This document shows, piece after piece, positions 5,608 to 23,149 of a stretch of 23,830 nt of DNA. This DNA comes from a virus. The position numbers were made by a program, and so were the translations under genes. Below the pieces are notes generated by a model. The model had not been told where the DNA came from. It saw nothing but the letters and a program-made list of their open reading frames with translations, and searched no databases. The stretch is taken from positions 1 through 23,830 of the IMG/VR virus record IMGVR_UViG_3300025586_000117, one strand, 5' to 3'. The stretch's first letter is position 1; every line of letters starts with the position of its first letter.

Positions 5608-5715
5608 ATGGCAGAAAAAATTGATGACCAGAACATCTTAAAATCTGAAGTTGACGGCGAAAAGTATCCAAAGCTATTTAAAGCTACGGAACTTGCGGGC
5701 AACTATAAAATATAA
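5608..5715 (+). pseudogene. Orphan N-terminus of a scaffold-like gene, interrupted by an HNH insertion
   Basis: ATG 5608 opens 35 codons, ending NYKI and TAA at 5713-5715. Residues 11-35 (LKSEVDGEKYPKLFKATE, then LAGNYKI) resemble residues 15-46 of the scaffold-like protein at 6242 (LKEIDGEQFPKLYATTE, then SSNYKI). The DNA is identical for 11 bases, AACTATAAAAT at 5701-5711 and 6368-6378, in the same codon phase in both copies. Joining the copies there would give one in-frame scaffold gene without the HNH gene. The ORF is therefore best read as the cut-off front of an older or donor version of the scaffold gene. It could still be translated as a 35-residue peptide; TATAAT at 5601-5606 lies next to its start. 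Confidence 0.6.
5701..5711 (+). repeat. Direct repeat copy 1 flanking the HNH cassette
   Basis: AACTATAAAAT occurs here in the orphan scaffold N-terminus and again at 6368-6378 in the scaffold gene. Both copies are in the same codon phase (Asn-Tyr-Lys-Ile). The 667 bases from one copy to the next include the whole HNH gene. Confidence 0.6.
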
Positions 5716-5719
5716 ATAT

Positions 5720-6202
5720 ATGCCATCAGGAATTTACAAAAGAACACCAGAAATGAAAAAAAAGCTTTTTGTAAGTGGTGGAACTCCTTGGAATAAAGGC
5801 AAGACAGGTATCTATTCCAAAGAAACTCTTGAAAAAATAGGAAAAAATAATCCTAATTATAAGGGTGGTATTACTACAGGCGAAAAAAGGAAAGGTTATG
5901 TTGATAATTATAACCGAGATTATAGGAGAAAAATGAGAAGTAATACATTAGATATAATGGGTGGCAAATGTGTAATGTGTGGATTTAATGATTACAGAGC
6001 ATTACAGATTGACCACATAAATGGTGGTGGGAATAAAGAAAGAAATAAAAAAAAGTTCATTGGACAACAGAAAAATTATCATAAGATGGTAATAGAAAGT
6101 TTCTTAAAAAAAGAGAACAAATACCAACTTCTTTGTGCTAATTGTAATTGGATAAAAAGATGTGAAAATAAAGAAGTTAACGGCATTAAAAATAAAAAAT
6201 AA
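5720..6202 (+). CDS. HNH endonuclease with NUMOD-like N-terminus (160 aa)
   Basis: This homing-type nuclease is inserted between two copies of a scaffold 5' end. I choose ATG 5720, because the upstream TTG-started extension to 5651 only re-reads the orphan scaffold N-terminus in another frame. Residues about 22-50 (TPWNKGKTGIYSKETLEKIG, then NPNYKGG) look like the DNA-binding NUMOD3-type helix found in HNH homing enzymes. The nuclease part has C84 and C87 (CVMCG), D98-H99 (LQIDHINGGG), then C139 and C142 (LLCANCNWIKR): an HNH core with a structural four-Cys zinc site. The C-terminus is Lys/Asn-rich. Codon use is more AT-rich than in the flanking head genes, consistent with a mobile gene. Confidence 0.85.
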   Translation: MPSGIYKRTPEMKKKLFVSGGTPWNKGKTGIYSKETLEKIGKNNPNYKGGITTGEKRKGYVDNYNRDYRRKMRSNTLDIMGGKCVMCGFNDYRALQIDHINGGGNKERNKKKFIGQQKNYHKMVIESFLKKENKYQLLCANCNWIKRCENKEVNGIKNKK

Positions 6203-7765: not shown

Positions 7766-7785
7766 ACACAATTATATGATTGTGT
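7766..7785 (+). terminator. Hairpin directly after the capsid gene
   Basis: ACACAAT (7766-7772) pairs perfectly with ATTGTGT (7779-7785) across the loop TATATG, two bases after the capsid stop codon. There is no T-run, so it may be a 3'-end stabiliser or weak attenuator rather than a true terminator. It leads straight into the HNH gene. Confidence 0.4.
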
Positions 7786-7797
7786 CAAGCAATACTT

Positions 7798-8277
7798 ATG
7801 AAATATATTAAAACAGGACAAAAACGTTCAGATGCCAAGAGAAAACTAAAAATAATGGTTGATGATACTGATTATAAGTATCTTAATAGTTTTTCTTGGC
7901 AAGTAAGTAAAGAAAATACAGTAGTTGCGAGAATAAATAAAAGAACTATTCTTATGTCGCGTTTAATAATGAATGCTCCAGAAAATTTAGAGGTTGACCA
8001 TATAAGTGGGAATCGTCTAGATAATCAGCGTTCAAATCTTCGTCTTGCTACGAGTTCTCAAAATAAGATGAACCGTGGACCAAGAAAAGATAATAAATGT
8101 GGATATAAGGGAGTATCGTGGCACAAACAAAACAAGAAATGGACGTCAAGAATAATGGCTAATGGTAAATATCAGCATTTAGGTCTGTTTGATAATATAT
8201 TAGACGCAGTTGAAGCATATAATTCAGCTGCTAAAAAATATTTTAAGGAATTTGCTTGGACAAATAGTTTAAGTTAA
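7798..8277 (+). CDS. HNH endonuclease with AP2 DNA-binding domain (159 aa)
   Basis: This is the third homing-type nuclease of the head module and belongs to a different subfamily from the other two. ATG 7798 is preferred; an upstream TTG at 7780 only adds six residues that read through the post-capsid hairpin. Residues about 45-90 form the HNH core: ARINKRTILMSRLIM, then LEVDHISGNRLDNQRSNLRL, with the Asp-His pair and two Asn. Residues about 103-150 form an AP2-type DNA-binding domain (YKGVSWHKQNKKWTSRI, then YQHLGLFDNILDAVEAYNSA). HNH_3 plus AP2 is a common layout in phage and intron nucleases. The last codon overlaps the first arm of the switch-like element at 8273. It probably arrived as a mobile gene between the capsid gene and its downstream partner. 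Confidence 0.9.
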   Translation: MKYIKTGQKRSDAKRKLKIMVDDTDYKYLNSFSWQVSKENTVVARINKRTILMSRLIMNAPENLEVDHISGNRLDNQRSNLRLATSSQNKMNRGPRKDNKCGYKGVSWHKQNKKWTSRIMANGKYQHLGLFDNILDAVEAYNSAAKKYFKEFAWTNSLS

Positions 8278-14163: not shown

Positions 14164-16008
14164 ATGGCATTAAAAACACCAAGCGGTATGTCTGAAGAAG
14201 ACGCAATCGCTTTATCACGACAACAACAAGAACAATTAAGAGCTAATATGCCAAAAGAAAATGAATTGGTTAAACTTTCTATTGGCGAAGGAGCTTATAA
14301 ATATGGAGTTCAGCAAGGGAACACCATCAACTGGCTTGATACAGGTCAATTTATGCCTCCTCTTACTGGCGGTCCAAGAGGAGAAAGGGATTGGCAAGGC
14401 AGAACTATCGGCTCTTGGATTACGGGTGGAACGGCTGGTATTCTTGGTCAATTAGGAAGTCCATCTGCCAGAGAAATAAACGTAGCTGATTATAATTCTC
14501 TAAACTTTAGCGAAAAAAATATCGCTTCAAGTCAATTTCTTGAAATGGCGAAAGCTGGACAAGCAATTGGAGCACCAATAACTCCAATATCACCAGTAGT
14601 CCCCGATAAATTAACGCCTGAGAGTTCCATATCAGGCATACAGAGCGTGTTTGGAGCTGGTTGGCAACCATCACCTGCCTTTACCCCAGAACTTCAAGCA
14701 CAAGGCATATTTGGAGCTGTAAGGATAGCTGGAACTAACGAGGTTTATACGATAGGACCAGGCGGAAGAAAAGAAACTGCCGAAAGTTTTTTACAAAGAT
14801 TTGGAACAGCAGAACAAGAGGGAATAGTAGGAGAGATTAGTAAGGAACAAGCCCTTAAATTAGGAGTAACTGATACGGGTCAAACTCCAGTAGCCCCTCC
14901 AGGAGCAATCACTCCAGAGGATATGGAAACAACAGAACAAATAGACCTTACTGGAACAGGTGAAACAACCAATGAATATACAGCCGATACAACAAATGCT
15001 GGTATTAACAAAAACGTTGAAACATATAACGCTAGTAAGTCAGATAGAGAAAAGGAACTAGAAACAGAAGTTGGCGACATAACAACTGAAATGAAAAGTT
15101 TACTTGAAGAAGCAGATGAAGGAAGGGGAGCAGCTCAGTTAACAGCCGAAGAAAAAGAGGAAGTCAAAGCAAAACAACAAGCAACAGATGACGCTTATGC
15201 CGAATTAGAAGCAAAAGAAGCAGAAATAGGAACATTAACTGCTACTTATCAATTAAAAAATCAAGTCATTGAGGGTAAACCAATCACAATGGGTTCTATT
15301 CAGGGACAACAGGCACAAGAATACAAGATGTATTTAGCACAAAAAAACCTTTTAACTTCACAGGCATCTTCATTACAAGCCAAAGCATTCGCATTAGAAG
15401 GAAAATTAAACCGAGCACAAGATGCTGCTGACCGTAGCGTAGATTTGAAATATGCAGATATACAACAAAGATTTAACAACCAAGTAGCTCTATATGATAT
15501 AGCCAAAGGTGAATTAACCGAAGAACAAAACATACGATTAGCATCTCTTGAACAATATACAAACCAACAACAAACTATTCTTGATTATCAAATAGATGAA
15601 GAAAAAGCATTAAACAAAGAAAAACTTGATTTAATTGGGAAATATTTATTAACCAATGTTGGTTTAGGCAACACACTACAAGAAATAAACGCAGCAGCTC
15701 AAGGAACAGCTATTTATAGACAACAGACCAGATTGGCTGGTGGCGGAGGTGGTGGAGGAACAGAACCCGAGCCAGATATTACTGAACCAACAATAGAACC
15801 ATCTTTAACAGCAGCACAAGTAAGAGATATTAAGTATTTACCAGACCCACCTCAATGGTTTAGACAGAAATGGGAAAAGAAACTCGGTTGGAGAATACCA
15901 CAACCATATCCAACACGCATACAAGAAGAATGGGATAGATTAAGAACAGAACAAGGTGGTGGAGAAGATGAATTAAACCAGTTAATTAATAAATATATAA
16001 ATGGCTAA
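14164..16008 (+). CDS. Large virion protein, possible ejection or tape-measure-like protein (614 aa)
   Basis: The N-terminal part has beta segments (INWLDTGQFMPPLTGG, VRIAGTNEVYTIGPGGRKE). From about residue 290 to 525 it is highly charged and helical, with coiled-coil-like stretches (TAEEKEEVKAKQQATDDAYA, then ELEAKEAEIGTL). A run of seven Gly near residue 525 and a Pro/Glu linker precede a C-terminal domain (PQWFRQKWEKKLGWRIPQPY). No membrane segment or muralytic motif is evident. With the overlapping 729-residue gene downstream it forms a pair of very large genes after the fibre, where podoviruses keep proteins ejected with the DNA. Tape measure is a less likely alternative, because the other long-tail genes are missing. 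Confidence 0.55.
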   Translation: MALKTPSGMSEEDAIALSRQQQEQLRANMPKENELVKLSIGEGAYKYGVQQGNTINWLDTGQFMPPLTGGPRGERDWQGRTIGSWITGGTAGILGQLGSPSAREINVADYNSLNFSEKNIASSQFLEMAKAGQAIGAPITPISPVVPDKLTPESSISGIQSVFGAGWQPSPAFTPELQAQGIFGAVRIAGTNEVYTIGPGGRKETAESFLQRFGTAEQEGIVGEISKEQALKLGVTDTGQTPVAPPGAITPEDMETTEQIDLTGTGETTNEYTADTTNAGINKNVETYNASKSDREKELETEVGDITTEMKSLLEEADEGRGAAQLTAEEKEEVKAKQQATDDAYAELEAKEAEIGTLTATYQLKNQVIEGKPITMGSIQGQQAQEYKMYLAQKNLLTSQASSLQAKAFALEGKLNRAQDAADRSVDLKYADIQQRFNNQVALYDIAKGELTEEQNIRLASLEQYTNQQQTILDYQIDEEKALNKEKLDLIGKYLLTNVGLGNTLQEINAAAQGTAIYRQQTRLAGGGGGGGTEPEPDITEPTIEPSLTAAQVRDIKYLPDPPQWFRQKWEKKLGWRIPQPYPTRIQEEWDRLRTEQGGGEDELNQLINKYING

Positions 16009-18190
16009 TTTTTTCCAAAATATTTTAAAGAAAAAATCAAATATATTTTCAGATATAATTGCAGTAGCTAAACAATTTCCGTCTGCCCTGAAAGAAACTG
16101 TCGCAGAATATAAATGGCTACCAGAGGGAGCAAGACCAATCGCTAAAAAAGTTGGTGGATTTTTAGAACCAGAAACAGAAGAAGAAAAATTAACTATGAT
16201 GGCTATTGGAGCGACTGGAGGATTGACAAGGGTTGGGACAAAAGCTGCTACAAAAGTAATCCAGAAAATAGACCCAGTTCAAAGGGTAGTAAATGTTTTA
16301 AAAAGGGCAAAACCAATAAGAGCAGAACAGGAAGCACTTTACACAAAAGCAAGGGGAATTAAGCTAGCTAAATCGCTTGGCGTTGCTAAAAAGACAACTG
16401 GAGAAGCTGGTTTCTTTGCTGAAAAAGGAGCATTAAAAGGAAAACTTCCAAAAGCACAATTTGAAACAATTAGAAAAGAAATAGGACAACCAGATATTGA
16501 TGCTTTATTTAATCAAGTGAAGGAAAGTCCAAAATTAAGTGAATGGGAAAAACTACCAGCAAGAGAAGGTCTTTCTAAAATCTTTGGTGAAACAGGCGGG
16601 AATGTTCCTACTAAAAATGAAATATCTTTATTAAAAGAAGTTTTTGGTGAAGATTTTAGAAAAGTTATTTTAAACAAAAGGTCATTGCTACAGAAAATAA
16701 CAGAAGCTGGGCTTCAACTTGCCAATGTTCCTCGTTCAATAATGGCTTCATTTGATTTATCAGCTCCATTAAGACAGGGTATATTCTTTATTGGAAAACC
16801 AAAAAAGTTTTTCTCTTCTTTCGCAAAGCAATTTAAAACTTTTGCTAGTGAAAAAGCATACAAGGCATTGAATGATGAAATTGTCAGTCGTCCTACATAT
16901 AGAATAATGAGAGATAATAAACTTGCAATTACAGAATTGGGACAAGCAATGACAACAAGAGAAGAAGCATTTATGTCTAACTGGGCAGAGAAAATACCAT
17001 TAGCTGGAAGAGTTGTTAGGGCTTCTGGGAGAGCATATACTGGATTTTTAAATAAACTAAGAGCTGATGTTTTTGATGATTTTATAAGACAAGGCGAGAA
17101 GTTAGGGATAAAAGACCCAAAGTTTCTAAAGAGTGCAGCAAGTTTTGTTAATCACGCTACAGGCAGGGGTTCGCTTGGTGGTCTTGAAAAAGTGGCAGTT
17201 CCATTGAATACTTTTTTCTTTTCTCCACGACTAATAACATCAAGACTAAACCTAATCAATCCACTCTATTATACAAAATTACACCCAACAGTTAGAAAAG
17301 AAGCTATTAAATCTTTATTTACTTTCGCAGGAATTGCTGGAACAGTTGGTGGATTACTTAAAATGGGAGGGGCAGAGGTAGAAATTGACCCAAGAAACGC
17401 TGACTTTATGAAACCAAAGTTTGGCAATACAAGATATGACATTTTAGGTGGATTTCAGCAACCAATTAGATTAGCAGCACAATTAATTAGCGGAAAGATA
17501 ATTAGTTCAACTACTGGAAAAACAATTACTCTTGGAGAAGGATATAAGCCATTAACAAGAGCTGGTATTGTTGGAAGGTATCTCTCATACAAAGAAGCTC
17601 CTTTAATCTCTTTTGCTCATTCACTACTTAAAGGACAAACAGCTATTGGCGAAAAGGTAGATATCCCAACAGAAATAGTAAATAGGTTTGTTCCAATGGT
17701 TACGCAAGATATGATAGACCTCTACAAAGAAGAAGGTATAACTGGAATACCAATGGCACTTCCTGCTATATTCGGAGTTGGAGTTCAAAGTTATGGTGGA
17801 GTTGAAAGCTATAATTTAAAAGGGAAAGAATATCCAAAGTTAAACGAAGAATTAAACAGATTAAAAACAACGATAGGATTTCCAAGCACATCTGCATTTG
17901 GAACAGAATTAAGCAATAAAGAATATAAAAAATTAAGAGAGATTTCTGGGACATTAATTGCTGATATTTTAACTGGAGTTATATCAGAACCAAGTTATGT
18001 TGAATTAACTGACTATCAAAAAAAACAACTTATAAATAAAGTTGTTGATAAAATAAAAACAAAAGCAAAGGGTAAATTATTTCCAAAAAAAGATATTAAA
18101 AATAAAATAAAGAAACGAATAATTGAAAGAGGAATAGATGAAGAAGAAGCTGAAAGAATATCTGATGAGATTTTAGCCAACGAGTTTTAA
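16001..18190 (+). CDS. Large internal virion or DNA-ejection-like protein (729 aa)
   Basis: The start overlaps the previous stop by eight bases. The sequence is helical and basic with several amphipathic or hydrophobic stretches: IAKKVGGFLEPETEEEKLTM (about 48-67), KSLFTFAGIAGTVGGLLKMG (about 440-460), and a middle containing ANVPRSIMASFDLSAPLRQG, IFFIGKPKKFF and AYTGFLNKLRADVFDDFI. That middle resembles a conserved region of large podoviral ejection proteins and polyvalent proteins in metagenomic phages. The C-terminus is Lys/Glu-rich (KKDIKNKIKKRIIERGIDEE). I infer that it enters the host envelope with the DNA. It overlaps by four bases the minus-strand gene that ends at 18187. Confidence 0.6.
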   Translation: MANFFQNILKKKSNIFSDIIAVAKQFPSALKETVAEYKWLPEGARPIAKKVGGFLEPETEEEKLTMMAIGATGGLTRVGTKAATKVIQKIDPVQRVVNVLKRAKPIRAEQEALYTKARGIKLAKSLGVAKKTTGEAGFFAEKGALKGKLPKAQFETIRKEIGQPDIDALFNQVKESPKLSEWEKLPAREGLSKIFGETGGNVPTKNEISLLKEVFGEDFRKVILNKRSLLQKITEAGLQLANVPRSIMASFDLSAPLRQGIFFIGKPKKFFSSFAKQFKTFASEKAYKALNDEIVSRPTYRIMRDNKLAITELGQAMTTREEAFMSNWAEKIPLAGRVVRASGRAYTGFLNKLRADVFDDFIRQGEKLGIKDPKFLKSAASFVNHATGRGSLGGLEKVAVPLNTFFFSPRLITSRLNLINPLYYTKLHPTVRKEAIKSLFTFAGIAGTVGGLLKMGGAEVEIDPRNADFMKPKFGNTRYDILGGFQQPIRLAAQLISGKIISSTTGKTITLGEGYKPLTRAGIVGRYLSYKEAPLISFAHSLLKGQTAIGEKVDIPTEIVNRFVPMVTQDMIDLYKEEGITGIPMALPAIFGVGVQSYGGVESYNLKGKEYPKLNEELNRLKTTIGFPSTSAFGTELSNKEYKKLREISGTLIADILTGVISEPSYVELTDYQKKQLINKVVDKIKTKAKGKLFPKKDIKNKIKKRIIERGIDEEEAERISDEILANEF

Positions 18191-18345
18191 TAGATTTTAC
18201 CAGATACTCGGATAATAAAGATTACAGCAATGGCAGATAGAAGCATTCCCCATATTCCAGTTTCGCATAAAGTAGCTAAGGTGAAAATCACAAGAGCAAT
18301 AATAACTATTTCAGAAAGCGAAGGTATTTTTTTAAAAAGTTTCAT
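18187..18345 (-). CDS. Minus-strand small membrane protein (52 aa)
   Basis: This is the only gene I can support on the minus strand. ATG at 18345-18343 opens a frame that begins MKLFKKIPSLSE, is followed by two hydrophobic stretches (IVIIALVIFTLATL and IWGMLLSAIAVIFII) around CETG, and ends RVSGKIY with TAA at 18189-18187. That gives two likely membrane segments in 52 residues, with basic ends. The A/T-rich bases before the ATG resemble those before many + strand genes here. A TATAAT at 18381-18376 on the same strand would start the mRNA about 24 bases before the ATG. It could be an exclusion protein, a small holin-like or antiholin-like product, or a toxin. It ends tail-to-tail with the 729-residue gene. 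No family is recognised. Confidence 0.55.
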   Translation of the reverse strand: MKLFKKIPSLSEIVIIALVIFTLATLCETGIWGMLLSAIAVIFIIRVSGKIY

Positions 18346-18375
18346 ATATGTTTAAGTTAATTAAAAATTTTATAG

Positions 18376-18381
18376 ATTATA
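18376..18381 (-). promoter_or_regulatory. -10 element for the minus-strand membrane gene
   Basis: The minus strand reads TATAAT, an exact -10 hexamer, 30 bases before the gene's ATG. No convincing -35 is present at 16-18 bases. The same bases overlap the first arm of the large inverted-repeat region on the + strand (18379-18386). Confidence 0.35.
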
Positions 18382-18782
18382 ACTCATAGTTCTTTCTACT
18401 CTTAGTGAAACGTTCCTGTATGCTACCCCCTTAGTAGGAAAGGAAACGCAACCAAAGCCTATTGCTCGGTCTTGCTGAAGTTCTAGAAACCCATTGTATC
18501 TTGGTAGAACTTAGAACTGACTGTAAATGAGATAGCTTTTGACCCCCTCATTCCTACTTCTTAATCGCCCAATTCACTATTCAGCTTAACGATTAAGCAA
18601 TACAGATAATAACATTCTGCTATGCTATGCTACCCCTTGAGTTATCAGAGGTATCCGCACGGTAATCATCTACTTATGTCGGCATCCAGCGGAGGATTGA
18701 TGAATTAGCCTATAGCCTATCCGCCAGTTAAACGATAAATCCCCAGAAGTCGATAAACAAACTGGGGAAGTATCGACTTTTT
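18379..18782 (+). ncRNA. Putative structured non-coding RNA (about 400 nt) with terminator
   Basis: No ORF of useful length exists on either strand here, base composition is richer in G+C than the neighbouring genes, and inverted repeats nest as in a folded RNA. ATAACTCA (18379-18386) pairs with TGAGTTAT (18638-18645) and encloses two branches. Branch one is AGTAGGAA (18433-18440) with TTCCTACT (18551-18558), holding AAGTTCTA (18478-18485) with TAGAACTT (18505-18512). Branch two is CTTAATCG (18560-18567) with CGATTAAG (18590-18597). A 3' part has GCGGA (18689-18693), able to pair with TCCGC at 18654-18658 or at 18720-18724. The region ends in a terminator at 18747-18782, which fixes the + strand as the likely transcript. 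TATGCTACCCC occurs twice (18419-18429 and 18626-18636). I see no tmRNA, RNase P, group I or group II intron signature. The 5' end is uncertain. Confidence 0.5.
18747..18782 (+). terminator. Rho-independent terminator with a competing stem
   Basis: AAGTCGATA (18747-18755) pairs perfectly with TATCGACTT (18771-18779), and the T-run continues to 18782. The neighbouring CCCCAG (18741-18746) pairs with CTGGGG (18762-18767), whose 3' arm lies in the terminator loop. The arms alternate with no gap at the 5' side, so the second stem should block the terminator. This is an attenuator-like arrangement. Confidence 0.65.
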
Positions 18783-18820
18783 AATCAAATTGTAATTTAA
18801 TACTATCAGAAAAAATAAAC

Positions 18821-18866
18821 CTTGTCAAGCTTTTTTAGACAAGTAAATAATGGCTTAACAAAGCCA
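18821..18866 (+). promoter_or_regulatory. Two small hairpins ahead of the 18875 gene
   Basis: CTTGTC (18821-18826) pairs with GACAAG (18838-18843) around a T-rich loop. TGGCTT (18851-18856) pairs with AAGCCA (18861-18866) around AACA. The second ends eight bases before ATG 18875, so it may affect ribosome access. Confidence 0.4.
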
Positions 18867-18874
18867 CAAATAAT

Positions 18875-19705
18875 ATGCCAATCAACAAAGAAAATATAAG
18901 CAAGATAAAAAACTTCTTAGCTGCTACTGATGCCAAGAGCTTGGAAAAAATGAAACAACTTTTAACCTTTGTAGATGAGGATGTTTTGAGTCGTAAAGAA
19001 TTTACAGAAAACTTTGCCAAGGTCTTGAAGTTCCTTACGGGTCTTAAAGAAAAGAACCAAGGAGAGTTCACAAACCTAAATAAGAATATGTCCGACTTAT
19101 CTAAAAAGATAAAAGGAGATAATCTTAGCGACCTCACAATCACTAAGAGTGAAATCAACAAACTATTCTCTGGCTTATCAGACAAACTCGGAAAGTTAGT
19201 AGATGACAAGATTGCTTCTGTGAGAGATGGATTTGACGGAAAGGACGCTGATGAAGAGAGAGTATCCATAATAGCCTCTGAGAGGGCGTTAGAGAGCGTT
19301 ACGCCACTTATCCCTACCACAAAGGGTATAAAGCGTGATATACTTAAAATGGGTAAATTACTGCGAAAGGCTCTTAAAAAGAAATTAAAGATTTCAGATA
19401 TTATAGGTCTTAAAGAAGCATTAAAGAAACAGGGTGTTCACTCATTATCTGGTGGAAGCGGAGGAATAGGGGGAAGCATAAGATATTATGATTTATCGGC
19501 AAGTTTAGATGGAAGCACACGAACATTTACACTTCCTGCTTTCGCAAGAGTAGTTGATGTCAAATTATCTTCTGTTCCAGTTATGAGAGAGGATACCGAC
19601 TATACAATTAATGGCTCAACTTTCCAAATAACTTTCACTTCAGAAATATCTGATAACGATATTTCATCTGGTCAAAGTTGTTGGATTTTATATAGTCAGA
19701 TGTAA
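18875..19705 (+). CDS. Tail adhesin-like protein: helical stalk plus beta tip (276 aa)
   Basis: Residues about 1-190 are helical and charged (ISKIKNFLAATDAKSLEKMK, NKNMSDLSKKIKG, LRKALKKKLKISDIIGLKEA), suggesting a coiled-coil stalk. A Gly/Ser hinge (SLSGGSGGIGGSIR) leads to a compact beta module of about 70 residues: YYDLSASLDGSTRTFTLPAF, then ARVVDVKLSSVPVMREDTDY and INGSTFQITFTSEI. This tip pattern recurs in phage tail and receptor-binding proteins. Translation starts after two small hairpins. It may be an accessory fibre or the attachment base for the 827-residue fibre downstream, whose start is 10 bases after this stop. There is no signal peptide, unlike that fibre. Confidence 0.6.
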   Translation: MPINKENISKIKNFLAATDAKSLEKMKQLLTFVDEDVLSRKEFTENFAKVLKFLTGLKEKNQGEFTNLNKNMSDLSKKIKGDNLSDLTITKSEINKLFSGLSDKLGKLVDDKIASVRDGFDGKDADEERVSIIASERALESVTPLIPTTKGIKRDILKMGKLLRKALKKKLKISDIIGLKEALKKQGVHSLSGGSGGIGGSIRYYDLSASLDGSTRTFTLPAFARVVDVKLSSVPVMREDTDYTINGSTFQITFTSEISDNDISSGQSCWILYSQM

Positions 19706-19715
19706 TTAAAAACTT

Positions 19716-22199
19716 ATGAAAAAATATATCTTAATAGTAATTATAGGGTTAGTAATAGCAGGTGGTGTATCAGCAAGTTGGTGGTCTGATTTTTTTGGAA
19801 CAGAAGAATTAGGAAAAGCATCAACTATTTACCAACCAAACATTCTTCCAGAAGCCGACTCTACTTACGATTTAGGTTCTAGTGCTGTTCGTTGGGCAAA
19901 TATATATGGAGATACATTCTATGGAGATGGAAGCAACCTAACTGGCGTATCTGGAAGTGGGATAGAAAACCTAAACTCTGAAACTCTCGGCTCAATAGGA
20001 GATGTATCAACTTCAACTTTAGGATATGGACATTTGATTATGTGGAATGGAAGCACTTGGCAAGATACCGCCACTTCTTCATTAGGAATTAGCGGAACAG
20101 CAGGAAACTGGGCTACTTCTTCATCAGATTACTGGTTAACAATTCAAGACACAGCCGACTTAACCGAAGGAACTAATCTCTACTATACTCAAGCAAGAGT
20201 ATGGGACGACACTTGGGCTTCAACAACCTTAGATACTCTTTTAACTAATTCACAAACCGCTTATGCTTGGGGTGACCACGGCATCGCAGGATACGCCTCC
20301 TCAACTGGAATGTATGCTAAGTATGGAACATTAGCTGATTTACAGTTAGCAGTTTCAGATGACTTTCACAATTTAGGCGGAACAGACGCCAACACGACTT
20401 ATACAGCTGGGACAAATATCACTTTAACGGGAACTCAATTTGATGTAGATGACGCTTTTCTAAAGAATAACGCTTCTGATACGACAACTGGAGGAATTAC
20501 GATGTTAAGCGGAACGACTACAAGCTCATTTTATATTGGCAACGACCTCACAGTATCGGGCGACACCACAATAGTAGATTTATATTTAACCAATGAAATA
20601 GTTTCAGGATATACAACCACAACATTAGGACTATTCACTCAAGCAAATGGACATATAGGAGGTAATTTAACCGTAGATGGCACAGGACACGATAGCTTTT
20701 CGGACTTTGTAGCCAACGAACATTTAGATTGGACAGCTTCAGTAGGAACTATCCACTCAGATAACTACACAAATACTACTTATACAGCAGGGGACTTTGC
20801 TCATAATTCTTTAAGTGGATTAAACGATGGGGACAGTTATGAACATTTAACAGCTACACAAGTCGCAGCATTACACGCTGAAAGTCATAATATCGCTTCA
20901 CATTCTGACACCACGGCAACTGGGGCAGAGTTAGATGATTTAACAGACAACTCAATGGTTGATACTTTGCACAGACATAGTGAATTAAGTGCTTCAGATG
21001 GGACTCCTGACAGGGCTTTGGTAGTTAATGCTTCTGGGTACGTCGGCATCGGGACGACGACGCCAAATACGCTTATGGTCTTGCATGACGATTTTGGTTC
21101 AGGAATTTATGGAGATATTCTTACCTTACAAGAAAATACTGGTAATTCAGGTGCGGGAACAGGGATAAGATTTAGAACAGGCATTACTTCAGGTGGTGTT
21201 ACGGTGGCAAGAATAAAAGGACTTGATGTAGGTGGTTATGATGGAGCATTAATTTTTGAAGTTGGAAATAATTCAGGTTATTCAGATGCAACAACGGAAA
21301 TGATGCGTATTACAAACGACGGCAACGTCGGCATCGGAACGACGACAATAAATAGTAGGTTATCCATTCAAGGTGGAGGAAATGATATTCTAAACTTATT
21401 TGGAGGTACAGGAACTGAAATGGTCACGGTATTAAATGACGGCAACGTCGGCATAGGGACGGCGAGTCCTGGGTACAAATTGGAAGTGGTTGGGGGTACT
21501 CGTATATTAATAGATGCTTCGGCTCTCGAACTTACGAATACTACGGTAGGCTCTCAAGATTACATATCATTTACTGGAGATAATCGTTATTATTATCTTG
21601 GGAAAGAAAGTTCTGCTGGAGGAACTATTTTTGGAGGGACATCAGCATACGCAATGGTTATGGGTATGTATTATGCAAATTCGATACAATTTGCTACAGA
21701 TAATGTGGTTAAGGTTACAATAGACGGAACAGGCAACGTCGGCATTGGGGATACGACTCCAAGTCAGAAATTAGATGTTGCTGGAAATGTTAGAGCAGAT
21801 GATTACTTAGAATATTCAAGACCAATCCCTAAAGGAGAAGCATTGCCTATAATTATGAATATGAAAAACAAAGAAGACGGGACATTAGACCATAAAAGTT
21901 TTCCCTCATTTACTTCAAAAGAAATAGAAATTTCAGAAGTAAAAGATAAAGAAGGAAAAGTTGTAAAAGAAGCAAAAATAATAACCAAAGAGAGTGTTTC
22001 ACTATCAAGTCAGATTAAGTATCTGATTAAGGGTATGCAAGAACAACAAGAAACAATAGAAGAGTTAAAGATAAGAATAGAAGAGCTTGAAAGTTCTAAA
22101 AAAGTTATGGGAGTTGGAGATAGCTGTTCACCTTGCGAAGATTTGAATTGGCGGCAGGAGTTTATAAATTGGATTAAGAGTTATCCACTTGACAATTGA
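19716..22199 (+). CDS. Exported large fibre/adhesin with VGIGTT repeats and coiled-coil end (827 aa)
   Basis: Residues 1-20 (MKKYILIVIIGLVIAGGVSA) are a signal peptide. Next comes WWSDFFGTEELGKAST and the fibre motif ADSTYDLGSSAVRWANIYGD. Long Thr/Ser/Gly beta segments follow (NWATSSSDYW, AYAWGDHGIAGYASS, LTATQVAALHAESHNIASHS). Four VGIG motifs occur (YVGIGTTTP, NVGIGTTTI, NVGIGTASP, NVGIGDTTP). The end has ADDYLEYSRPIPKGEALPII, then a coiled coil (QIKYLIKGMQEQQETIEELK). This is like the chaperone region of S74-type fibres but without a clear self-cleavage site. Two Cys (SCSPCED) lie near the C-terminus. The protein probably binds cell surfaces. The signal peptide is puzzling for a virion part; it may be cell-displayed, or derived from a cellular adhesin. 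Confidence 0.7.
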   Translation: MKKYILIVIIGLVIAGGVSASWWSDFFGTEELGKASTIYQPNILPEADSTYDLGSSAVRWANIYGDTFYGDGSNLTGVSGSGIENLNSETLGSIGDVSTSTLGYGHLIMWNGSTWQDTATSSLGISGTAGNWATSSSDYWLTIQDTADLTEGTNLYYTQARVWDDTWASTTLDTLLTNSQTAYAWGDHGIAGYASSTGMYAKYGTLADLQLAVSDDFHNLGGTDANTTYTAGTNITLTGTQFDVDDAFLKNNASDTTTGGITMLSGTTTSSFYIGNDLTVSGDTTIVDLYLTNEIVSGYTTTTLGLFTQANGHIGGNLTVDGTGHDSFSDFVANEHLDWTASVGTIHSDNYTNTTYTAGDFAHNSLSGLNDGDSYEHLTATQVAALHAESHNIASHSDTTATGAELDDLTDNSMVDTLHRHSELSASDGTPDRALVVNASGYVGIGTTTPNTLMVLHDDFGSGIYGDILTLQENTGNSGAGTGIRFRTGITSGGVTVARIKGLDVGGYDGALIFEVGNNSGYSDATTEMMRITNDGNVGIGTTTINSRLSIQGGGNDILNLFGGTGTEMVTVLNDGNVGIGTASPGYKLEVVGGTRILIDASALELTNTTVGSQDYISFTGDNRYYYLGKESSAGGTIFGGTSAYAMVMGMYYANSIQFATDNVVKVTIDGTGNVGIGDTTPSQKLDVAGNVRADDYLEYSRPIPKGEALPIIMNMKNKEDGTLDHKSFPSFTSKEIEISEVKDKEGKVVKEAKIITKESVSLSSQIKYLIKGMQEQQETIEELKIRIEELESSKKVMGVGDSCSPCEDLNWRQEFINWIKSYPLDN
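21039..21759 (+). repeat. Four near-identical GGCAACGTCGGCAT-type coding repeats
   Basis: The DNA coding for the VGIG motifs is unusually GC-rich and conserved: at 21039-21062, 21318-21347, 21438-21466 and 21732-21759. GTCGGCAT is shared by all four, and GGCAACGTCGGCAT by the last three. Neighbouring codons for the same amino acids are AT-rich. Similarity at the DNA level beyond protein need suggests recent copying or recombination. Confidence 0.6.
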
Positions 22200-22217: not shown

Positions 22218-22305
22218 ATTAACAAATAACCTTGCGACATAAAACCCGATTTGTTTAATAGTTACTCGCAAGGTTCTATTAAGCCAGTCGGGTTTTGTGT
22301 TTAGC
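22210..22305 (+). promoter_or_regulatory. Leader with interleaved inverted repeats (possible pseudoknot)
   Basis: Four pairings are visible. A: 22213-22227 with 22249-22263 (14 pairs, one bulge). B: AACCTTGCGA 22228-22237 with TCGCAAGGTT 22266-22275 (10 of 10). C: AAAACCCGA 22241-22249 with TCGGGTTTT 22288-22296 (9 of 9). D: GCTAAAC 22210-22216 with GTTTAGC 22299-22305 (7 of 7). B and C alternate with connecting loops of 3, 16 and 12 bases, the layout of an H-type pseudoknot. If transcription starts near 22224, most of the 5' arms of A and D are not in the RNA and belong to the promoter DNA. C followed by GTGTTT could also act as a terminator. The recombinase ATG is eight bases after D. Confidence 0.6.
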
Positions 22306-22312
22306 CAAACAA

Positions 22313-23149
22313 ATGAATAATACATTTGCAGAGTTCAGGAAATATCTTTTAGTTTCTAAAGGTGTTTCAGACGTAACCATTCAGGGCTACGTGGGCAGTA
22401 TCAAGCCAATGTTCAGAAGAATGAAAACTCACTACCCTATTTATCCGACACACGAACAGATAACCGACTACATAGCGTGGATGTATGACCAAGAATACTC
22501 ATATCATTATATCGTAAATACAAGCCTAGCGATAGAATGGTGGACAAAGTTTCACGGATATCCAATAAAGTTAGGCAGACCACGAAAGCCAAGAACAATA
22601 ATAAAAGATGTTTTAAGTGAAGCAGAGATAACCAGAATGATAGCCATAACCAAGAATATCCGAGAGAAAGCAATAATAACCTTACTGGCTTACAGCGGGA
22701 TACGAAACAAAGAACTATGCGGATTAAGAGTATGTGATATAAACTTAGGTGATAATATGATTAGAGTGTTATCTGGAAAAGGTAGTAGAGATAGACTTAT
22801 CCACATATCAGGTGATTGCTCAAGAGTAATGCTTGAATATCTAAACCAATATCAAAGAACACCAGAAGATTATTTATTCACAACATTAGTTAGAAATGAA
22901 AAATATTCAAGTTGGGCATTAAGAAAGTTAATGAAAGTTTTATCAAATAGAGCAGACATTAGAAAAAGAGTTTATCCGCATTTATTAAGACATAGTTTAG
23001 CAGTTAATTTATTAAGGAGAGGATGTAATCTGGTATTGATACAAAGACAATTAGGACACGCTTATATCAGTTCAACAGAAATCTATATAGCGTCATTTCC
23101 TCAAAGAGTTCAGTCACAATATCACTTATTTATACCATCATATTTATGA
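22313..23149 (+). CDS. Tyrosine recombinase / integrase (278 aa)
   Basis: The enzyme cuts and rejoins DNA through a 3'-phosphotyrosine, for phage integration or dimer resolution. All catalytic positions are visible: R131 (SGIRNKEL), K156 (SGKGSRDR), H223 and R226 (HLLRH), H249 (QLGHAYI) and nucleophile Y258 (TEIYIA). Residues about 1-82 are the SAM-like core-binding domain (FAEFRKYLLVSKGVSDVTIQ). Length and layout match XerC/D-type enzymes more than large lambda-type integrases; there is no arm-binding domain. ATG 22313 is chosen because a TTG start at 22295 would read through the structured leader. A strong promoter lies upstream. The stop overlaps the next ATG (23146). Whether it integrates the phage cannot be decided, since no attachment site can be confirmed. 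Confidence 0.9.
   Translation: MNNTFAEFRKYLLVSKGVSDVTIQGYVGSIKPMFRRMKTHYPIYPTHEQITDYIAWMYDQEYSYHYIVNTSLAIEWWTKFHGYPIKLGRPRKPRTIIKDVLSEAEITRMIAITKNIREKAIITLLAYSGIRNKELCGLRVCDINLGDNMIRVLSGKGSRDRLIHISGDCSRVMLEYLNQYQRTPEDYLFTTLVRNEKYSSWALRKLMKVLSNRADIRKRVYPHLLRHSLAVNLLRRGCNLVLIQRQLGHAYISSTEIYIASFPQRVQSQYHLFIPSYL

Follow-up and report, generated by a model that had tools for sequence, protein, structure and literature searches.

A lineage-specific non-coding insert beside a small opposite-strand membrane ORF in a phage genome

The window (the whole stretch of virus DNA analysed here, 23,830 nucleotides) carries a non-coding insert of about 430-450 nt at 18346-18793, between two + strand genes. The insert is gene-free, it is extra with respect to syntenic relatives, and it folds better on the − strand, its proposed sense strand, than on the + strand. 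We propose that this lineage-specific sequence of about 430 nt belongs to a small − strand unit, in which its likeliest role is that of a long 5′ leader or a control region; we put the probability of this reading at about 0.4. The absence of ORFs from the insert, the excess of stems and the recurrence of an opposite-strand membrane ORF at the same position in relatives are what the analysis shows.

The junction and its extra sequence

The gap at 18191-18874 (684 nt) separates the two + strand genes and is the only one of at least 220 nt between called genes in the window. Upstream lies a virion-region gene of 729 aa (16001-18190), with a 59% identical relative in contig L002; downstream, a 276-aa gene (18875-19705) has weak homologues in G029, G017, G008 and G004. 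A preliminary description had named these neighbours as DNA-ejection and adhesin genes, which the family searches do not bear out: neither matches a family in Pfam, PHROGs or NCBIfam, and only the next gene (19716-22199) matches tail-fibre families. The same description called 18379-18782 gene-free and comparatively GC-rich. Both statements hold: there is no ORF of at least 60 aa in this region, and its GC content is 41%, against 36% in the whole window. The surrounding 18191-18874 also has no long ORF in the ORF call.

Relatives were collected through their portal and capsid genes, and the junction was compared where the counterpart of the 18875 gene was recognisable (G004, G029, G017 and G008, which are loci L010, L068, L058 and L049, respectively). 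The junction measures 684 nt in the window, 160 nt in G004, about 120 nt in G029, 12 nt in G017 and 1 nt in G008; thus, the extra sequence is lineage-specific among the phages at hand. Fetched contigs whose portal and capsid genes are near-identical to those of the window end before the region.

Elsewhere in the window, three small free-standing HNH-type ORFs lie among structural genes, at 711-1187, 5651-6202 and 7780-8277. The first and third match Pfam HNH_3; the second has no Pfam match but, judged by eye, resembles an HNH gene. Directly after the first of them, the terminase ORF at 1279 starts at an apparent Walker A motif, and the terminase gene may be interrupted; Rfam finds no group I intron. 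A tyrosine recombinase gene (22295-23149) is located among the late genes after the tail fibre, and its nearest NCBIfam model is the archaeal XerA, at 177.8 bits, below the cut-off of 220. A relative of the capsid, portal and terminase genes (L076, 4972-5820) is found on a 5.9-kb contig of an Aenigmatarchaeota MAG; since a capsid gene is present in only 1 of 156 Aenigmatarchaeota genomes, mis-binning of this contig is likely. Shine-Dalgarno-like motifs are few, standing before 4 of the 21 genes in the window and 0-4 genes per relative, which suggests that the host does not depend on such motifs.

A small opposite-strand unit

Next to the insert, the − strand carries a 52-aa ORF with one predicted membrane helix (18187-18345), whose stop overlaps that of the convergent 16001-18190 gene. 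This copy has no Pfam match. Four available loci have at least 90 nt after a homologue of the 16001 gene, and in each of them an opposite-strand ORF of 38-52 aa, beginning with ATG and encoding a membrane helix, lies right against the end of that gene: three (the window, L068 and L002/L011) were found by script and L010 by hand, the script having missed L010 since its open frame extends upstream. The ORFs in the same place are 45 aa long in L010 (8456-8592), 38 aa in L068 (4877-4993) and 42 aa in L002/L011 (10860-10988 in L011). Over 162 gene ends with a gap of at least 90 nt, the script returned three such ORFs at these junctions and only two at the other ends, about 158 in number. Identity among the small ORFs is 15-29%, too low to establish that they are homologous, and antisense frames of AT-rich sequence often appear hydrophobic. 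The predicted 52-aa protein would be holin-like in size only.

Promoter-like sites were scored against the sigma-70 consensus, which may not be that of the host. At 18828-18800, a − strand site (TTGACA-17-TAGTAT, its −10 preceded by TG) matches the consensus at 10 of 12 positions and is the only site of at least 10/12 with TG in 20 kb. An opposing + strand site (18822-18851, TTGTCA-18-AATAAT; 10/12, a consensus match only) overlaps it and is directed towards the 18875 gene; over the two lies a dyad, CTTGTC...GACAAG (18821-18843), read from the sequence as a possible operator. TATAAT is also present near 18383-18378. The genome shows no overall excess of promoter-like sites, with 59 found against 63.7 expected from shuffles. 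In G004, a 10/12 − strand promoter-like site is located directly upstream of the small ORF; in G029, none was flagged upstream of it.

We propose the following for the − strand unit. Transcription would start near 18793 from the promoter-like site at 18828-18800, and the transcript would include the whole insert (18793 to 18346) as an extended 5′ leader with several local hairpins. The same transcript would then continue into the 52-aa membrane ORF (18345-18187), and the leader may delay or tune the expression of the membrane protein. The use of this promoter, the strand, a single transcript shared by leader and ORF, and a regulatory role are what we infer.

Pairing and folding within the insert

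The region 18379-18782 contains five exact Watson-Crick stems of 8-9 bp that are mutually non-crossing. Stem A (18379-86/18638-45) is the outer one and encloses, within 18379-18645, stems B (18433-40/18551-58), C (18478-85/18505-12; high base-pair probability on both strands) and D (18560-67/18590-97); stem E (18747-55/18771-79) is separate from these four. The preliminary description had reported five nested stems of about 8 bp: the number and length of the stems stand, but they do not form a single nest. Exact stems of at least 8 bp average 1.2 in shuffled sequences, and five were reached in 1% of 300 shuffles. When only mutually compatible stems of this length are counted, none of 400 dinucleotide shuffles has five, and the maximum among 76 other 404-nt windows of the same phage is three; this compatible-stem statistic was picked post hoc, after the earlier claim had been seen, and is suggestive only. 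The excess of compatible exact stems supports some selection on pairing, whereas folding energy gives no such support.

Two further elements of the preliminary description were found again, a repeated motif and an alternative pairing of GCGGA. The motif TATGCTACCCC is present twice, at 18419-29 and 18626-36, in the two copies of an imperfect direct repeat: the first copy is AACGTTCCTGTATGCTACCCCCTTAGT (18409-18435), and the second (18611-18642) has about 5 extra bases through duplication of TATGC; both copies fall into repeat families D2 and D3. By inspection of the bases, one GCGGA (18689-93) has two alternative TCCGC partners, at 18654-58 and at 18720-24.

Towards the other end, hairpins E and F overlap within 18733-18779 and are mutually exclusive. 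Hairpin F pairs 18740-46 with 18762-68 and can be extended to 18733-46/18762-75; in hairpin E (18747-18779), the loop is 15 nt long and just 3 of the pairs are G-C. The pairing probability of F is at least 0.99 on both strands and that of E is 0.00, because F uses the same bases. A pseudoknot of E and F was considered and rejected: the connecting loops, 0-2 nt, are too short for both stems together, so the two hairpins would be alternatives. Stem lengths like those of E and F were seen in about 1 of 300 shuffles. On the + strand, a run of five U follows E and F, and a weak terminator is possible there; the terminator scan did not flag this candidate, and the one terminator-like site that it did flag in the vicinity belongs to the − strand. 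The "good" + strand terminator reported earlier is not confirmed: its stem E is outcompeted by F.

The folding energy of the whole region is not unusual, with z of −0.2 on the + strand and −0.5 on the − strand. When the boundaries suggested by the promoter-like site and the ORF are used (18346-18793), z is 0.06 on the + strand and −1.63 on the − strand, where 6% of 300 shuffles fold as well. Other 448-nt windows of the phage have a mean z of −1.05 (+) and −0.82 (−), with a standard deviation of 1.6; thus, the − strand value falls within the phage's own background. By the same method, E. coli rnpB gives −2.5 and the T4 nrdB intron region −4.2. In sliding windows, only the end near 18740-18869 folds notably well, with z of about −3 on both strands. 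Forming stems A-D costs about 10 kcal/mol relative to the minimum free energy (MFE) on the − strand and only about 3 kcal/mol on the + strand; in these fold models, the difference leans towards the + strand and against a − strand leader. The + strand is nevertheless the less supported by predicted folding energy, although A-D fit its fold slightly better.

Weighing the readings and comparison with known systems

No homologue of the insert emerged from the searches. Comparison of the region with phages and plasmids by blastn gave chance matches only; nhmmer over about 1.0 Mb of fetched loci found no homologue (best E 3.1), nor did a search of 0.77 Mb with a covariance model made from this one sequence, in which the best match beyond the sequence itself had an E of about 1, or the examination of 145 genomes of one phylum. 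In IMG/VR, pattern scans for hairpins E/F and for a 19-mer found no homologue, and the scan for the double motif gave one match, L003, which was rejected as a simple repeat array. The repeat-consensus scan gave 19 matches with similarity confined to the motif, and several of these sit directly upstream of an ATG in other phages. A 23-nt match in one of the 145 genomes (G144) was judged to be chance, and, on inspection, candidate gaps in L065, L060 and L067 were not accepted as homologous. Since no homologue was found, covariation could not be assessed.

For the leader reading we count the recurrence of the small ORF at four loci, the junction gaps, the promoter-like site in G004, the uniqueness of 18828-18800, and the − strand z of −1.6 against 0.1 on the + strand. 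Against it we count that promoter-like sites are not in excess and that G029 has none at this place, that the − strand z lies within the background, that stems A-D are costly on this strand, and that the ORFs are divergent; moreover, the leaders in relatives look very short.

An alternative that we rate almost as probable is that the insert acts as DNA, as a control region or spacer. It would then hold overlapping opposed promoters, dyads that resemble operators, and direct repeats; its stems would be incidental or would bind protein, and there would be no functional RNA. The dyads and opposed promoter-like sites at 18800-18866, the duplicated 27-32 nt repeat, the ordinary folding energy of the whole region and the lack of a homologue in any search are all consistent with this. 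However, five compatible exact stems beat all 400 shuffles, and the insert, which makes the sole gap of at least 220 nt, is large for a phage with otherwise tightly packed genes.

It is unlikely, on our estimate, that the insert is a new structured phage RNA of recent acquisition, about 430 nt long and probably of the − strand, built on a core of four compatible helices of 8 bp, with a hairpin switch at its 5′ end and no homologue described so far. A stand-alone new structured RNA of the + strand, ending in a hairpin near 18782, as the preliminary description had proposed, is rather improbable. The stem excess, the lack of an Rfam match, the U run after hairpins E and F, and a cost of A-D within about 3 kcal/mol of the + strand MFE argue for it. 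Against it, the + strand z of 0.1 compares poorly with −2.5 for rnpB and −4.2 for the nrdB intron region, the supposed terminator stem has a pairing probability of 0.00, and there is no homologue and hence no covariation. The strand itself is doubtful: the ORF of conserved position and the strongest nearby promoter-like site both belong to the − strand, and shuffled sequence folds as well as the + strand does. Finally, a mobile-element remnant or decayed gene inserted between two phage genes is about as improbable: the insert is missing from syntenic relatives, its ends pair imperfectly (21 nt, 76%) and the free-standing HNH-type genes indicate mobile elements in this phage, but DNA searches of phages, plasmids and relatives gave no match, no clear target-site duplication was seen by eye, and no decayed ORF was recognised.

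If the RNA is real, it would be an orphan in a phage group about which little is known, tied to a gene for a small membrane protein whose opposite-strand position at one virion-gene junction is repeated in relatives. If it is not, the case is a caution that nested stems seen by eye can beat shuffles without support from folding energy or homologues.

Among known RNAs, the comparison with Rfam 15 that had been suggested as a check, and in which a significant match would have refuted the claim of novelty, gave no known family (GOLLD, ROOL, OLE, introns, tmRNA and RNase P included): covariance models give nothing in the window at the gathering threshold, and at E ≤ 5 the matches are no better than chance. 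Neither a tRNA nor a tmRNA was detected in the window by ARAGORN. The earlier statement that signatures of tmRNA, RNase P and group I or II introns are lacking is borne out by ARAGORN and by Rfam at E ≤ 5. The insert recalls these introns as non-coding sequence of comparable size in a phage with HNH genes; unlike them, it lies between genes, interrupts no ORF and has no Rfam intron match at E ≤ 5. GOLLD and ROOL are both longer, as had been noted; they often occur close to tRNA islands and have covariation support (PMC12286853). The insert resembles them in being non-coding, phage-borne and a proposed multi-helix RNA, with no function assigned to any of the three; it differs in having neither an Rfam match nor covariation support and in lying in a window without tRNA. 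Attenuators end in a terminator ahead of the ORF, whereas none is evident before the ORF on the − strand of the insert. Structured 5′ leaders of the riboswitch-like or attenuator-like kind also differ from the insert, which has no matching family or conserved aptamer and whose transcript is only predicted. Like these long leaders, the insert lies between a promoter-like site and a small ORF, and it carries two mutually exclusive hairpins near its proposed 5′ end.
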